Source: Streptomyces halobius (lineage in GTDB: Bacteria > Actinomycetota > Actinomycetes > Streptomycetales > Streptomycetaceae). Taken from it: a stretch of 64,000 nt of DNA. The notes under the pieces were generated by a model. That model was not told the DNA's origin. It was given only the letters and a program-made list of their open reading frames with translations, and searched no databases. The stretch spans positions 4,588,001 through 4,652,000 of the forward strand of contig NZ_CP086322.1 in assembly GCF_023277745.1 (NCBI RefSeq), read 5' to 3'. The translations under genes were made by a program, and so were the position numbers. The number at the start of each line of letters is the position of its first letter. The stretch's first letter is position 1. This document shows positions 8,148-18,653 of this stretch, one piece after another.

Positions 8148-8162
8148 ACTGACTTCGGCTCG

Positions 8163-8780
8163 TCAGGGTGACGCTGGATCGTCGAGGGACAGGACGGTTC
8201 CGGCTATGAAGCCGTCGAGGGTCTCGGGTCGGTACTGGAGGCGTTTGAGGCGGTTGCGGACGAGTGTTTCCAGGCGGTCGAGGGCGACGACAGCGAGGTT
8301 GGCCAGGCTGCGTTTGACGTGTGCCCACACCGCCTCGACGGGGTTGAGGTCGGGCGCGTAGGCGGGCAGCAGGAACACCGTCAGCCACTCGCGCTGGGCG
8401 ATCAACTCCCGTATGGCGTGAGAGACATGGGTGTTCAGCCGGTCCCACACCAGCACGATCGGCGCCTTGACCAGCTGGTGCACGCCGTCGATCAGCGCGA
8501 CGAAGTCGCGTTCGCTCATGCTGCGGCGCTTGCCGGCTCCCGCCCGGTGGGTGCGCAGGCGGTGGCACAGCCGGGTGCGGGACCCGGGCCGCATCGCGAT
8601 CAGCCCGGCCACCGACAGCCGTCCCGAGCGCCCCCCGCTGACCGTCACGACCGGGGTGACGCCACGCCGACCCCACGTGCGTCCTCGGGGCGGCCGACGG
8701 GTGAAGCCTGCCTCGTCCTCGAAGCAGATGCAGCCGCCGCAGGCCGCCCGGGCTCTTCTACCTCCGCCCAGGTCGCCTCC
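8163..8780 (-). pseudogene. IS630 transposase, C-terminal DDE half
   Basis: Contains the three catalytic acids in recognisable settings: CFEDEAG, VLVWDRLNTH and DLNPVEAVW, the last followed by HVKRSLANL. The frame carrying the second and third motifs is open from 8648 to the stop at 8163. Upstream, the frame carries the CFEDEAG block and then shifts by one base within the string after ATWAEVEE. The 5' border is the IS110 insertion at 8780. Joining position 8780 to 10201 or 10205 rebuilds the codons LWKE-ATW without a break. The fragment lacks the DNA-binding domain and cannot be functional alone. Confidence 0.85.
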
Positions 8781-8983
8781 GTAAGTTGTTGGGCGGCCCG
8801 GGAGGGCCGGGTGTGGCTCAGGTTGCCTTGCCTGTAGTGGCTCGGAAGGAGTGGCCGCCCGGCTTTCCGGGGCGCCCTGGCTGCTGATTGAGATGTGCGC
8901 GCCTTGTGCGGTCGCTGATTACGGAGATGACAGCGGGGTGTTCCTCGGGCCGACAGCATGATGTTGGAGACGAGGAGGGGCGC
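8781..8983 (+). ncRNA. Putative bridge RNA of the IS110 element
   Basis: Non-coding leader of the element. It contains four guides in the order established for IS621-type bridge RNAs. GGTTGCCT (8821-8828) matches the left target GGTCGCCT (8771-8778) at 7 of 8 positions, the difference being a possible G-U wobble. GGAAGGAG (8844-8851) is the exact complement of the right target CTCCTTCC (10201-10208). ATTGAGA (8887-8893) equals the element's right end (10194-10200). TTACGGAG (8919-8926) is the exact complement of the left end CTCCGTAA (8777-8784). Spacing is 15 nt between the target guides and about 25 nt between the donor guides. Transcript ends are not known, so the range is the whole leader. 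Confidence 0.78.
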
Positions 8984-10186
8984 GTGCGCAAGGAACGGGA
9001 CCGGGTCTGGGCCGGCATCGACGCCGGCAAGGCTCATCACTGGGCCGCAGTGGTCGACGAGACCGGAGCCACCTTGTGGTCGAAGAAGATCGACAACGAC
9101 GAGTCTGCCATCCTGGCTGCGCTCGGCGAGATCCTGGCCCTGGCCGACGATGTCCACTGGGCGGTGGACATCTCCGGCACGGCCTCCGCGTTGCTGCTGG
9201 CCCTGCTCGCAGCTCACGGCCAGCGGGCCGTCTACGTGCCCGGCCGCACGGTCAACCGGATGTCCGGCGCCTACCGGGGCGAGGCCAAGACGGACGCCCG
9301 CGACGCCTACGTCATCGCTGAGACCGCCCGCCACCGCAACGACTTCACCGCGATCGACGTGCCGGCCCAGCTGGCCGCCGACCTCGCTTTGCTCACCGCC
9401 CACCGCTCCGACCTGGTGGCCGATCGGGTAAGGATGATCAATCGGCTGCGCGACGTGCTGACCGGCGTCTTCCCCGCGCTGGAGCGGGCTTTCGACTACT
9501 CGGCGCACAAGGGTGCGCTGGTGCTCCTGACCGGCTACCAGACTCCTGCCGCCATCCGGCGCCGCGGCCGGGCCCGGCTGACGGCCTGGCTAGCCAACCG
9601 CAGCGTCCGGAGTGCCGATACGGTCGCCGCCACCGCCCTGGAAGCCGCTCAGGCCCAGCAGACCGCGCTGCCCGGCGAGGACATCGCCGCCCAGATCGTC
9701 GCCGACTTGGCGGCGCAGATCCTGGCCTTGGACGACCGGCTCAACCGGATCGACAAACAGATTCGCGAGACCTTCCGCAGTCACCCGCAGGCCGAGATCA
9801 TCGAGTCCCTGCCCGGGATGGGGCCAATACTCGGAGCGGAGTTCGTCGTGGCGGCGGGCGATATGTCTGCCTACGCGGACGCCGGGCACCTGGCCTCGGC
9901 AGCCGGGCTCGTGCCCGTTCCCCGCGACTCCGGCCGACGGACCGGCAACCTTCACCGGCCCAAGCGCTACAGCCGTCGCCTACGCCGGGTGTTCTATCTG
10001 TCGGCGCAGACCAGCATCATCCGCGACGGCCCGAACCGGGACTTCTACCTCAAGAAGCGCGGCGAGGGCTGCAAACACGTTCAAGCTGTCATCGCCCTCG
10101 CCCGACGCCGGGCCGGGGTGCTCTGGGCACTCCTGCGTGACGGACGGCTCTTCACCCCCGCCCCGCCGGTCGCGCAAGCGGCTTGA
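8984..10186 (+). CDS. IS110-family transposase (DEDD RuvC-like plus Tnp20 domain)
   Basis: A 400-residue protein starting at GTG 8984 behind GAGGAGGGG. The N-terminal RuvC-like DEDD domain shows GIDAGKAHHW (first Asp), VDISGTAS and [12 protein letters not shown] (the last two acidic positions). The C-terminal Tnp_20 domain has SLPGMGPILGAEFV and the SAAGLVPVPRDSGRR region that carries the conserved Ser nucleophile. Such recombinases move the element as a circle using the RNA made from the leader. It lies on the strand opposite the IS630 gene it interrupts. No frameshift or missing motif was seen. Confidence 0.93.
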   Translation: MRKERDRVWAGIDAGKAHHWAAVVDETGATLWSKKIDNDESAILAALGEILALADDVHWAVDISGTASALLLALLAAHGQRAVYVPGRTVNRMSGAYRGEAKTDARDAYVIAETARHRNDFTAIDVPAQLAADLALLTAHRSDLVADRVRMINRLRDVLTGVFPALERAFDYSAHKGALVLLTGYQTPAAIRRRGRARLTAWLANRSVRSADTVAATALEAAQAQQTALPGEDIAAQIVADLAAQILALDDRLNRIDKQIRETFRSHPQAEIIESLPGMGPILGAEFVVAAGDMSAYADAGHLASAAGLVPVPRDSGRRTGNLHRPKRYSRRLRRVFYLSAQTSIIRDGPNRDFYLKKRGEGCKHVQAVIALARRRAGVLWALLRDGRLFTPAPPVAQAA

Positions 10187-10200
10187 CTTCGTCATTGAGA

Positions 10201-10664
10201 CTCCTTCCACAAGGTCACGGCCTGCTCGTCGCGCTCGGCCACCCGCCGTGCGGGCACCTGCGGGCTGAATCCGAGCCGGTGCATCAGCCTGGTGGCACCC
10301 GAGACGCTGTAGGAGACGTGGAACTTCCGCCCGATCAGAGTGGCCACCCGCGCGGCCGTCCACACCTGGTCCTCCACCCAGCCATGCGCGGCCGGCCCTG
10401 CTCCAGGTACCCGGCCAGCTTCTCCAGACAGCGCGACGACAGACGGCACCGCGACCCGCTCGGACCGCGCGAGGCCAGGGCCTGCACACCGCCTTCCCGC
10501 CATATCCGGTACCACTGGTAGGCCGACTTCCGGCTCACCCGCAGCCGTTGCGCCACCTCCGGCGGCTTGACCCCCTCATCGAACAGCTCGGCCGCCTGCA
10601 TGCGTACCGTCTCCCGGCGCTGACGTCCCGCAGCGGTGAGCCCGCCGCCATCCGCATACCTCCC
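10201..10664 (-). pseudogene. IS630 transposase, N-terminal helix-turn-helix half
   Basis: Encodes the DNA-binding part: the first HTH with FDEGVKPPEVAQRL and SRKSAYQWYRIWREGG, then VEDQVWTAARVATLIGRKF with a second HTH. One base is missing in a GGG run after YLEQG, which shifts the frame between these blocks. Compared with the second copy of this end at 12.36-12.51 kb, the likely GTG start (at 10664) has become GGG. The gene is cut at its 3' side by the IS110 element after the codons LWKE. Confidence 0.8.
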
Positions 10665-10768
10665 CCACCACGAAGTACAACCAACACCCCAGCCCCATCA
10701 GGGGAACCAGGAAAGATCACCCTGACGAGCCGAAGTCAGTAAACGGCAAGCTCACCGCATATGCGGAA

Positions 10769-11989: not shown

Positions 11990-12360
11990 TCAGGTCGCGG
12001 CGATGTCGCGCCAGGCCGTGGCCAGGGTGGTCGCCACGTCCGAAGCGCCGATGGGGGCGCCCTCGCGGCCTGCGGCGTGCCGGCCCGCCAGGCCGTGTAC
12101 GTACGCAGCGACCGACGCCGCCTCCCGCGCATCCAGCCCGCTCGCGAGAAGCGAGCCACCCAGCCCCGACAGCACGTCGCCGCTGCCGGCCGTGGCCAGC
12201 CAGCTCGTGCCGGTCGGGTTGCCCCGCACCGGACCGCCCACCGCGTCGGCGACCAGCGTCGTCGACCCCTTGAGCAGCACCGTCGCGCCGTACTCCGCCG
12301 CCAGCCGCCGTACGGACGACAGCCGCGCCGCCTCCCCCTCCTCGCGCGCCAGGCCCAGGC
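11990..12360 (-). pseudogene. nnrD: NAD(P)H-hydrate dehydratase, C-terminal fragment
   Basis: About 120 residues matching the C-terminal third of ADP/ATP-dependent NAD(P)H-hydrate dehydratase: VLLKGSTTLVAD, NPTGTSWLATAGSGDVLSGL with the nucleotide-binding GSGD, and HGLAGRHAA. The enzyme repairs hydrated NAD(P)H. The 5' two thirds are missing: at position 12361 the sequence changes abruptly into an IS630 end. The fragment has no plausible start of its own and is judged dead. The missing half is not in the window, so a deletion or larger rearrangement accompanied the IS insertion. Confidence 0.85.
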
Positions 12361-12507
12361 TGCCTGCATGCGTACCGTCTCCCGGCGCTGACGTCCCGCA
12401 GCGGTGAGCCCGCCTCCATCCGCATACCTCACCCACCACGAAGTACAACCAACACCCCAGCCCCATCAGGGGAACCAGGAAAGATCACCCTGACGAGCCG
12501 AAGTCAG
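12361..12507 (-). mobile_element. Solo right end of the IS630-family element
   Basis: About 147 bases that match 10597-10740 with two mismatches. They include the 24-base terminal inverted repeat and the trailing TA. They retain the GTG start and the first 20 or so codons of the transposase (RYADGGGLTAAGRQRRETV). Everything else of the element is missing. It truncates nnrD on one side and ends 77 bases before the sigma-factor relic on the other. Confidence 0.88.
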
Positions 12508-12794: not shown

Positions 12795-13877
12795 TCAAGC
12801 CGCTTGAGCGAGATTCTCGGAGTTCTCCCCAGCGTCTCGGTTGGAGCGTTCGAGGATCTTGAAAAGGTGGCGACAGATCGCTCGCTTGAGGCAGCGTTGC
12901 GCGTCGCGGGAGGTCTTGCCCTCGGAGATTCTGCGGGCGACGTACGCCTTCGTAACTGGGTCGAGCCGCATCCGGATCAGCGAGATGGTGTGCAGGGCCC
13001 GGTTGAGCTGTCTATCGCCGCTGCGGTTGAGGCGGTGACGGTTGGTCAGCCCGGAGGAGGCGGGAATCGGCGAGACGCCGGCGAAGGACGCGAAGGCAGC
13101 CTCGGACCGGAACCGACCGGGATGGGACCAGCTGACCAGGATCTGCGTGGCGGTGATCGGCCCGACGCCGAGCAGGTCCAGGAGCTCGGGCGCCACCTCG
13201 CGGACCAGGGCGAGCATCTCGTCCTCGAGCTCCTTGGCCTCGGCCTGCAGGGCCTGGATCCGCTGGGCAGTGGAGCGCAGGGCCCGTACGGTCATGCGGT
13301 GCTCGATGTCCTGGGCCGGCCGGTCCCGGAGCTGGGCGCAACGGGCTATCTGGACCGGACGCTTGAGCTTCCGCAGCTCGGCGCGGAGGTCGTCCGGCGC
13401 GGACACGATCAGCGACTTGAGCTGGTTGATCGCGGCGGTGGAGGCGAGGACGGCTCCATGGCGGGTGGAGAGCAGGACACGCAGGGCTTCCCGCTCGCCG
13501 CGGAGCCGGGGCTGGATCAGGTGCTCACTGGACAGGGCTTCCTTGGCTGCGCGGATCGCGTCGATCATGTCGGTCTTGCGGCCGCCACGGACGGAGGGGC
13601 GCTTGGGCCGACAGACTTCCACGACGTGCTCACCGGCCTGGTCGAGGAAGGCGGCCAGGCCGGCACCGTAGCTGCCGATGCCTTCCAGGGCCCAGCTGCG
13701 ACGGCCGGGGATGTGGGTGCGGGCGAAGTCCAGCAAGCGCCGGTATCCGCAGGCGTTGGCAGGGGCATCGCTGCTGGCCAGTACGGCACCGATGGGGCTG
13801 ACGGCGGCTGCGGCGAGGGTGTCGCGGTGGGTGTCGACGCCGATGACGCCGTCTACCTGTTCTGCGAGCATGGTCAC
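12795..13877 (-). CDS. IS110-family transposase (leftmost nested copy)
   Basis: A 360-residue DEDD recombinase. The start chosen is the GTG ending at 13877 with AAGGAG eight bases upstream. The frame stays open to 13937. Motifs: VIGVDTHRDTLAAAA (first Asp), WALEGIGSYGAG, GRKTDMIDAIRAA, then in the second domain LLGVGPITATQILVSW and ASFAGVSPIPASSG with the conserved serines. The C-terminal RRISEGKTSRDAQRCLKR is a typical IS110 ending. It lies on the strand opposite to the sigma gene. Confidence 0.92.
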   Translation of the reverse strand: MTMLAEQVDGVIGVDTHRDTLAAAAVSPIGAVLASSDAPANACGYRRLLDFARTHIPGRRSWALEGIGSYGAGLAAFLDQAGEHVVEVCRPKRPSVRGGRKTDMIDAIRAAKEALSSEHLIQPRLRGEREALRVLLSTRHGAVLASTAAINQLKSLIVSAPDDLRAELRKLKRPVQIARCAQLRDRPAQDIEHRMTVRALRSTAQRIQALQAEAKELEDEMLALVREVAPELLDLLGVGPITATQILVSWSHPGRFRSEAAFASFAGVSPIPASSGLTNRHRLNRSGDRQLNRALHTISLIRMRLDPVTKAYVARRISEGKTSRDAQRCLKRAICRHLFKILERSNRDAGENSENLAQAA

Positions 13878-14288
13878 GCGGTTGCTCTCCTTCTTGGACG
13901 GGACGACCGTGGTCGGCGTCGGCCTGGGTGGAGTCACCGCGTGGCAGAACTGTGATGAGTCACGTCGAGATGGCGGACAAGCTGCTGATCAAGCCAACGT
14001 GGTGGGCCAGGTCGACGTCGACGTCCGGCAGACATCTCGGGGGCACGACAAGCCCTGACGAGCCGTCAGTTACCTTGCGAGTCATGCCGGAACGTCGACG
14101 CCGATCCTGGCAGCAGCCCAACCCGGGCCGCAGCCCCACTCTCACAATTACCTTTTTGGTGGCCCCGCAACGGGGCGCCCGGCCTCCGGAGCTGGCATGA
14201 CTTTCTCCCCCTGTCGAACGCATGGCCTGGGGGGTGGTGTCACCGACTCCGGAGGCATCGACAGACCGCTGATTAGCGCCTCTGTGTG

Positions 14289-18570: not shown

Positions 18571-18580
18571 TCACCTCAGA

Positions 18581-18653
18581 GCCGCCTTCGGGATTCGAAC
18601 CCGAGACCTACGCATTACGAGTGCGTTGCTCTGGCCAACTGAGCTAAGGCGGC
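18581..18653 (-). tRNA. tRNA-Thr (anticodon CGT)
   Basis: A 73-base cloverleaf on the minus strand. The acceptor stem pairs GCCGCCT with AGGCGGC, the D-arm reads AGCTCAGTTGGCCAGAGC, the anticodon loop ACTCGTAAT gives anticodon CGT for codon ACG, and the T-arm carries GGTTCGAATCC. CCA is not encoded. The integrase relic starts about 600 bases downstream of its 3' end, which is the usual place for an integrated element. Confidence 0.95.

Follow-up and report, generated by a model that had tools for sequence, protein, structure and literature searches.

An IS110 bridge RNA in Streptomyces halobius probably reprogrammed from gene start signals to an IS630 transposase gene, and an antisense reading frame proposed to be tied to its address

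Which sequences does the guide RNA of an IS110-group element address, and does the address leave a trace in the coding content of the element that carries it? The question is raised by a stretch of 64,000 nucleotides of the Streptomyces halobius chromosome (NZ_CP086322.1, positions 4,588,001 to 4,652,000, forward strand; the whole stretch is called the window), in which an IS110-group element of 1426 bases, both copies of its CT core counted in, interrupts the transposase gene of an IS630 element. Comparison of this element with its relatives makes it quite probable that it specifies a bridge RNA whose guide was reprogrammed from the start signals of genes to IS630, and that an open antisense reading frame is kept under selection in relatives with the start-signal address. 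The initial annotation had read the guides of this single leader and missed that the lineage mainly addresses start codons. What a specialist would find surprising is the coupling of the antisense frame to the guide address.

Guides of the bridge RNA and their target in IS630

Direct reading of the leader confirmed the four guide strings named in the initial annotation, namely GGTTGCCT (8821-8828), GGAAGGAG, ATTGAGA and TTACGGAG, which belong to the left target guide (LTG), the right target guide (RTG), the left donor guide (LDG) and the right donor guide (RDG), respectively (Table 1). The LTG match extends over 12 nucleotides (nt), CTCAGGTTGCCT against CCCAGGTCGCCT, with two U-for-C positions at which G-U pairing is allowed; the two mismatches of this kind mentioned earlier both lie in the 12-nt match, only one of them falling within the 8-mer then noted. 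Scored at the guide positions, the real site reaches 19 of 20, and the maximum among the 6265 CT-centred sites of the window is 17. A search of the 9.24 Mb genome for CAGGTYGCCTCCTTCC gave no exact match that was unoccupied; the near matches comprise one site with one mismatch and 39 with two, compared with 16 for a reversed control pattern. The LDG and RDG are complementary to the element's own ends and nearly invariant over 32 leaders, so that covariation of the donor guides can hardly be judged.

The target guides could be followed across relatives (loci bear L numbers). From 114 loci, 83 with a distinct leader and flank were kept, 80 of these exceeded 68% identity and 79 had parsed guides. 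The LTG test used 72 of these 79 element-flank combinations, the window's own included (seven had no usable left flank), and the RTG test used 61 rows, after exclusion of ten loci whose right ends were truncated or misplaced and of one interrupted by a contig end; wobble pairs counted half, and small shifts were permitted in test and shuffles alike. The LTGs matched their own flanks at 7.72 of 9, compared with 5.27 for shuffled targets, and the RTGs at 5.72 of 7, compared with 3.92, with none of 5000 shuffles as high in either test. Similar values were obtained with one row per distinct guide (44 LTGs, 7.75 vs 5.24; 36 RTGs, 5.89 vs 3.82; 0 of 5000 in both), and the LTG in fixed register scored 5.82 vs 3.94. 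Even the start-codon (CAT) class alone, with 47 LTG rows and 44 RTG rows, still exceeded all 5000 shuffles. Where one guide occurs at several sites in other genomes (L066-L068; L077, L078, L083 and L122; L224, L245 and L246; L243 and L254-L256), the sites share the general type of the guide, and single RTGs fit unevenly. As a separate observation, the left target of L007, CATTGAGAGC, resembles the right end of such an element, perhaps reflecting a tandem insertion or a former neighbour.

The consensus fold was calculated with RNAalifold on the 32 leaders. The first fold pairs the left end of the element with the RDG (columns 1-8 with 156-163) and also involves part of the LDG; the former pairing is read as the complementarity between guide and donor, and hence the leaders were refolded without the left end. 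The resulting two-stem fold has 33 pairs with 98.1% of cells paired, compared with 37-54% in slid versions. In the target-binding stem-loop, helices 1 and 2 have 98.7% and 97.9% of cells paired, with 6 of 23 pairs changed on both sides, and helix 3 of the donor-binding stem-loop has 97.3%, with 3 of 8 pairs so changed. Because this alignment had also served in part to define the structure, the paired percentage leans toward the fold; this holds less for the two-sided changes, which occur in 9 pairs vs 3.0 in shuffles (0 of 500). The LTG and RTG lie clearly within one internal loop of the covarying consensus, around a small apical stem, as would be expected from the initial annotation; for the LDG and RDG this expectation is borne out in part, since they lie in a second loop in which the free fold without the left end draws two pairs between them. 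The functional bridge RNA proposed at the outset is supported by the guide-flank shuffles, the covarying two-stem fold and the shared IS630 site, its activity being a prediction.

The target itself could be seen in its empty state. The interrupted gene corresponds to one annotated as an IS630 family transposase in a plasmid relative (H67), and the left half of IS630 was detected in 57 of 392 genomes of the genus at E 1e-60. The 32 best loci were taken and 30 compared, two partial ones being left out; 28 of the 30 have no IS110 at the insertion point, the two occupied ones being the window's own and L175. Among the 28 empty sites, 18 carry the exact 16 bases CAGGTCGCCTCCTTCC and 22 continue gapless into IS630-like sequence, and comparison with the occupied sites places the insertion at the dinucleotide core, without a longer target duplication. 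L175 matches S. hygroscopicus ATCC 21589 (L115), in which the first 1264 bases of the element are present at 95% identity and the remainder is missing; the left guide of this copy, CAGGTCGCCT, fits the IS630 target perfectly. The same perfect guide is found in L216, likewise a 95% relative; its gene is broken and its left end lost, and its right end lies against IS630 and CTCCTTCC. These comparisons support the view that the guide pair CTCAGGTTGCCT/GGAAGGAG would address a conserved stretch of IS630-family transposase genes.

The flanks of other copies, suggested earlier as a check, agree with this address: five near-identical copies in this genome share one target, all lying at the same base of the IS630 transposase gene. 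The same IS630 surrounds each copy, the outer flanks differ, TA stands beside both IS630 ends in three of the five, and the genome yielded no IS630 copy that was both full-length and empty, all of which would fit a single guided insertion that IS630 then spread with IS110 as its passenger, in place of five insertions. The chance of this explanation is considerable, if a little below even. It is opposed by L001-L003, in which the IS110 sequence is identical (0 of 1426 positions differ) though the IS630 flanks differ at 4-8 positions, and by an excess of change in IS630 over IS110 at p < 0.05 in 8 of 10 copy pairs (the two others being L001-L004 and L002-L004). Because the IS630 flanks differ more than IS110, entry of IS110 into already diverged IS630 copies is favoured; carriage by IS630 or gene conversion could produce the same copy pattern.

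Start-signal address and the antisense reading frame

Most of the relatives examined are found at a different kind of site. Their flanks read CATGGG-N-CTCC, which is the reverse complement of a Shine-Dalgarno sequence (GGAG), a spacer and ATG. An ATG lies 4-8 nt from the core in 50 of the 73 loci whose left flank was of sufficient length, and 40 of these 50 open at least 100 codons, compared with 39% of 321 nearby control ATGs. In six annotated plasmid relatives, including IS116 and IS2112, the start of the neighbouring gene lies 5 or 6 nt from the core in all six cases, and their guides specify an address of this type. Within one genome, elements sharing a guide sit at several different start sites. 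As judged from guides and flanks, translation starts are the usual address of the bridge RNA in this lineage, and the window element belongs to the minority with other addresses, its target lying inside the IS630 transposase gene and not at a start codon with a Shine-Dalgarno sequence. The joined ends read CATTGAGA-CT-CCGTAAG or, reversed, CTTACGGAG-TCTCA-ATG. Wherever an element enters a start site, the Shine-Dalgarno sequence of the host thus ends up 5 nt before the ATG in the right end of the element, and the left end of the element, in reverse reading CTTACGGAG with its GGAG, before the ATG of the host gene.

The antisense frame that opens at this ATG is in codon phase with the transposase gene and therefore, within that gene, can be stopped only by the sense codons TTA, CTA and TCA. 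Among 100 distinct element-flank combinations, 85 have a full intact transposase gene, as delimited by homology anchoring; an ATG lies 3-9 nt from the core in 59 of them (the ATG class), 21 have no such ATG (two from this genome), and the flank of five was unread. The three codons are absent from 56 of the 59, from 1 of the 21 and from all five with an unread flank, whose guides are of the ATG type. Their totals are 9 in 23,434 codons in the ATG class (all in the three exceptions), 57 in 8,332 elsewhere and 18 in 15,130 in 49 host genes at target sites. Neither ATA (44, 20 and 8 in ATG class, elsewhere and host genes) nor AGA (25, 8 and 8) is depleted. Expressed per 1000 codons, TTA/CTA/TCA amount to 6.8 in the retargeted elements vs 0.4 in the ATG class, an approximately 18-fold difference, compared with 1.3-fold for ATA and 0.9-fold for AGA. 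Fisher's test for target class against antisense stops gave 1e-14, descent being disregarded. Because TTA, CTA and TCA are absent while ATA, AGA and ACA are present, selection for an open antisense frame can be inferred. In the other two antisense frames, the mean number of stops is 10-13 in either class. These counts replaced an earlier set based on the longest open reading frame (ORF), in which frames were mixed in some rows and 26 partial, divergent or cut loci had been skipped; L132, which has a very long protein-tree branch, a suspected frameshift and seven stop-making codons, was dropped from the ATG class (earlier 60).

An antisense ORF of at least 400 codons is present in 51 of the 55 intact ATG-class elements with a readable right end (L155, one of the four with a short ORF, has a misplaced right end), and in 45 it ends at most 65 bases from the left end or runs through. 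A frame that mostly ends close to the start of the host gene would be what translational coupling or a cover against termination needs. The window element has no element-spanning antisense ORF, its frame comprising 71 codons.

A later set was collected from 787 searched genome slots, some genomes being repeated from the earlier search, and comprised 27 new intact elements; duplicates were left out. The three codons were absent from 17 of 18 ATG-class elements vs 2 of 9 others, both of the latter at GTG starts, and from 16 of 17 vs 2 of 8 after removal of L209 and L210, which are about 50% identical and whose left ends were perhaps misread. The elements of this set are not all independent because several are copies from one genome. 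The six plasmid elements are without exception free of these codons. The more distant loci L203-L208, L212, L213 and L261-L284 (49-63% identical) differ in their left end and contain 0-4 antisense-stop codons per element.

It is possible, though doubtful, that what keeps the antisense frame open is its product, a Hed-like protein produced only at sites with a Shine-Dalgarno sequence of the host, and not a role as a cover. A precedent exists in IS900, whose complementary strand contains the element-spanning ORF hed, of unknown function according to the available part of the source (PMC8141618), and the frame in the ATG class is likewise open nearly end to end. Fourfold third-base identity is only somewhat higher between ATG-class elements than in other pairs, for example 0.61 vs 0.53 at 85-90% protein identity; among ATG-class elements it amounts to 54-66%, and most changes at these sites alter the antisense residue. 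The antisense sequence is therefore at most weakly conserved, which speaks against such a product and is also an uncomfortable point for the reading preferred here. Because the openness of the frame is kept better than its sequence, translation as such is tentatively favoured over a specific protein.

An improbable explanation is that the absence of TTA, CTA and TCA reflects Streptomyces codon bias or shared descent, combined with looser usage in decaying retargeted elements. These codons are rare in host genes too, the ATG-class elements are mutually related, and other rare codons are about twice as frequent in the retargeted ones. The excess for ATA, AGA and TCT, however, reaches at most 2.8-fold between classes (for TCT), far below the 18-fold difference given above, and the ATG class has fewer TTA/CTA/TCA than host genes but more ATA. 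In addition, two Rhodococcus relatives lack these codons, and the target class switches about 11 times on the tree.

Probable retargeting and the proposed course of events

On the DNA tree, 11 changes of target class are required (10-12 in bootstraps). The best tree yields 11 independent pairs, of which 8-9 differ in antisense stops in the expected direction and none in the opposite one (p 0.004-0.008). The supported sister group of the window element consists of L079 and L165, the latter being the sole locus added from viral contigs, and both have ATG-type guides; L116 and L045, which follow in the tree, do not belong to the start-codon type. The tree itself gives no direction of change, and retargeting away from start sites is argued because a frame can close more readily than it can open. 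Besides IS630, the other addresses would comprise genes of plasmids or integrative elements and repeats. Plasmid matches place the address of L116 near a DUF317 gene, the site of L071 has a relative on a plasmid in which a DUF317 gene is likewise present, and plasmid matches for the site of L106 point to short repeated stretches. Two guide lineages (L099/L106 on the one hand, and L054, L055, L057 and L149 on the other) address two points, separated by 16 nt, within one conserved and repeated locus, and L087 and L130 address another repeat. L084, L096, L071, L106, L054, L056 and L057 have no recognisable right end and may be immobile relics.

A course of events consistent with these data can be proposed. 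The recombinase would exchange the joined ends of the element with the target at the shared CT, as in the IS621 mechanism, the donor loop addressing the element's own joined ends and the target loop, in the window element, the IS630 stretch. At start sites, insertion would swap two initiation signals, that of the host and that of the element, and ribosomes translating the element backwards would most likely prevent transcription termination, so that the host gene is still expressed. Once the guide comes to address other sites, as it does in the window element, this need would lapse and the antisense frame would decay. On balance, the evidence leans towards guide and coding content evolving as a unit, in which a start-signal guide is tied to an antisense frame across the whole element and this tie is released on each retargeting.

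Several results weigh against these conclusions. The 11 pairs of the best tree rest on weakly supported branches; the well-supported branches alone give five pairs, with an average of 2.6 in the expected direction and 0.0 in the opposite one, which is not significant. Pfam searches with eight flank translations from retargeted sites gave no match. Guide fits are poor for the RTGs of L134 and L069 and the LTGs of L006 and L007, and the guide of the window deviates from its target by U, probably through later drift because the two 95% relatives carry the matching C. Folding of the window RNA as a single sequence is no better than that of shuffles (z -0.93), and the structure rests on the alignment because this fold is uninformative. 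Antisense stops occur in L007, L157 and L163 among the 59 ATG-class elements and in L257 among the later 18, and L127 has none despite lying off an ATG. GTA (41, 23 and 57 in ATG class, elsewhere and host genes) is used in the ATG class at about half the rate of host genes, and retargeted elements have generally looser codon use (TCT 2.5 vs 0.9 and CTT 5.8 vs 3.2 per 1000). Finally, 33 loci without a motif-defined left end, 32 of them at 49-63% identity and the last being L216, were left out of the later set as unclassified. As for L127, its target is TATGTGTT, and a start codon was perhaps lost there after insertion.

That the leader-flank matches are a coincidence has a negligible chance, since the free choice of positions at a single locus, by which 1 in 1500 random CT sites scores 19 if any ordered pair of positions in the leader is allowed, stands against own guide-flank pairs that beat their shuffles, empty IS630 sites and a covarying fold.

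If correct, the proposed reprogramming would represent a natural and repeated rewriting of bridge-RNA guides between a general address, the start signal of genes, and special addresses in other mobile elements. For studies on bridge recombinases, the lineage also provides a large collection of natural guide-target pairs that include U-G pairing and variable spacing.

The element, its surroundings and related systems

Table 1. Positions of the features discussed, in window coordinates.
Feature	Position	Strand	Basis
IS110-group element	8777-10202	+	junction shown by empty IS630 sites elsewhere
Element left end CTCCGTAA	8777-8784	+	read directly
Element right end ATTGAGA	10194-10200	+	read directly
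IS110 transposase (recombinase) gene, GTG start, 400 aa	8984-10186	+	DEDD_Tnp_IS110, Transposase_20
Left target CCCAGGTCGCCT, core CT 8777-8778	8767-8778	+	read directly; empty sites compared
Right target CTCCTTCC, core CT 10201-10202	10201-10208	+	read directly; empty sites compared
LTG CTCAGGTTGCCT	8817-8828	+	covaries with flanks across relatives
RTG GGAAGGAG	8844-8851	+	covaries with flanks across relatives
LDG ATTGAGA	8887-8893	+	equals right end 10194-10200
RDG TTACGGAG	8919-8926	+	complementary to left end 8777-8784
Target-binding stem-loop, outer arms 8796-8818/8853-8873, apical stem 8830-8832/8839-8841	8796-8873	+	RNAalifold, pair counts
Donor-binding stem-loop, arms 8874-8883/8931-8939	8874-8939	+	pair counts, RNAalifold without left end
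Short antisense ORF, ATG in right end, 71 codons	9980-10195	-	ended by sense CTA codon
TTGACT, candidate -35 box in excised circle	10183-10188	+	motif only
TAAGTT, candidate -10 box, 17 nt from -35 in circle	8782-8787	+	motif only
Interrupted IS630 element	8148-10740	-	inverted repeats 8148-8166 and 10722-10740
IS630 transposase, N-terminal half (HTH_33)	10192-10515	-	domain match
IS630 transposase, C-terminal half (DDE_3)	8163-8648	-	domain match

The transposase of the element matches DEDD_Tnp_IS110 (E 5e-49) and Transposase_20 (E 4.4e-19), and D13, D62, D104, D107 and S316 are each kept in 83-85 of 85 relatives. The second DEDD position is D (residue 62) in 85 of 85; its equivalence to E60 of IS621 is by spacing, with no significant alignment. 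The motif TTGACN-N17-TAAGNN, a candidate promoter by motif only, spans the joined ends in 70 of 76 relatives. In the surroundings, a different IS110-family transposase gene (PF01548, PF02371) lies 2.6 kb away at 12795-13937 (-), and a 111-base piece at 12358-12468 is 97% identical to the right end of IS630 (10590-10700) in the same orientation, which is read as a relic of another IS630 insertion or of a rearrangement. An Rfam scan of the window at gathering thresholds gave a tRNA gene at 18580-18653 (-) as the sole match.

Two named relatives, IS116 of S. clavuligerus and IS2112 of Rhodococcus, show 67% and 77% protein identity, respectively, to the transposase of the window element. One copy of each was considered, and both have a guide, a start-codon target and no TTA, CTA or TCA; their guides differ from that of the window element, and the right target of IS2112 begins with CTCG, not CTCC. 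A further comparison is with IS900 of Mycobacterium, reportedly the subject of a 1997 study by Doran. The relatives of the window element resemble IS900 in the kind of site, the orientation and a nearly full-length antisense ORF, a likeness by description and not by sequence. As far as the available text of the source goes, IS900 has the target motif CATGNNNNNNTCTCCTT and is targeted to start sites (PMC8141618). The window element itself differs in lying off such a site and in its short antisense ORF, and for the present lineage the guides could be read. Start-site targeting by IS900 is thus already known; the reading of guides for start-signal targeting is new as far as the literature searches went, no link between bridge RNA and start signals and no IS900 guide having been found in the open-licence PMC papers searched. 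The exchange of initiation signals proposed above offers a reason for both the start-signal targeting of IS900 and its hed frame, since it would keep the insertion tolerable to the host.

RNA-guided target choice by DEDD transposases is shared with the seekRNA of IS1111/IS110 elements (Siddiquee 2024, PMC11187229); the main text of that report lacks the words "Shine" and "IS900" and uses start codon and ribosome binding in unrelated meanings only. As described in the available parts of the reports on IS621 (Durrant 2024, PMC11208160; Hiraizumi 2024, PMC11208158), the window element resembles IS621 in the RNA at the left end, the order LTG-RTG-LDG-RDG and the senses of the guides, and also in the CT core, a promoter (here a candidate) across the joined ends and a conserved serine in the Tnp domain. 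IS621 differs in its class of target and in the 4 nt of RTG paired in its structure, compared with the 8-nt match found here. Unlike in IS621, the RDG of the window element matches contiguously, and the second DEDD residue is D62 instead of E60, the best match of the window transposase to the solved chain spanning the C-terminal part only.

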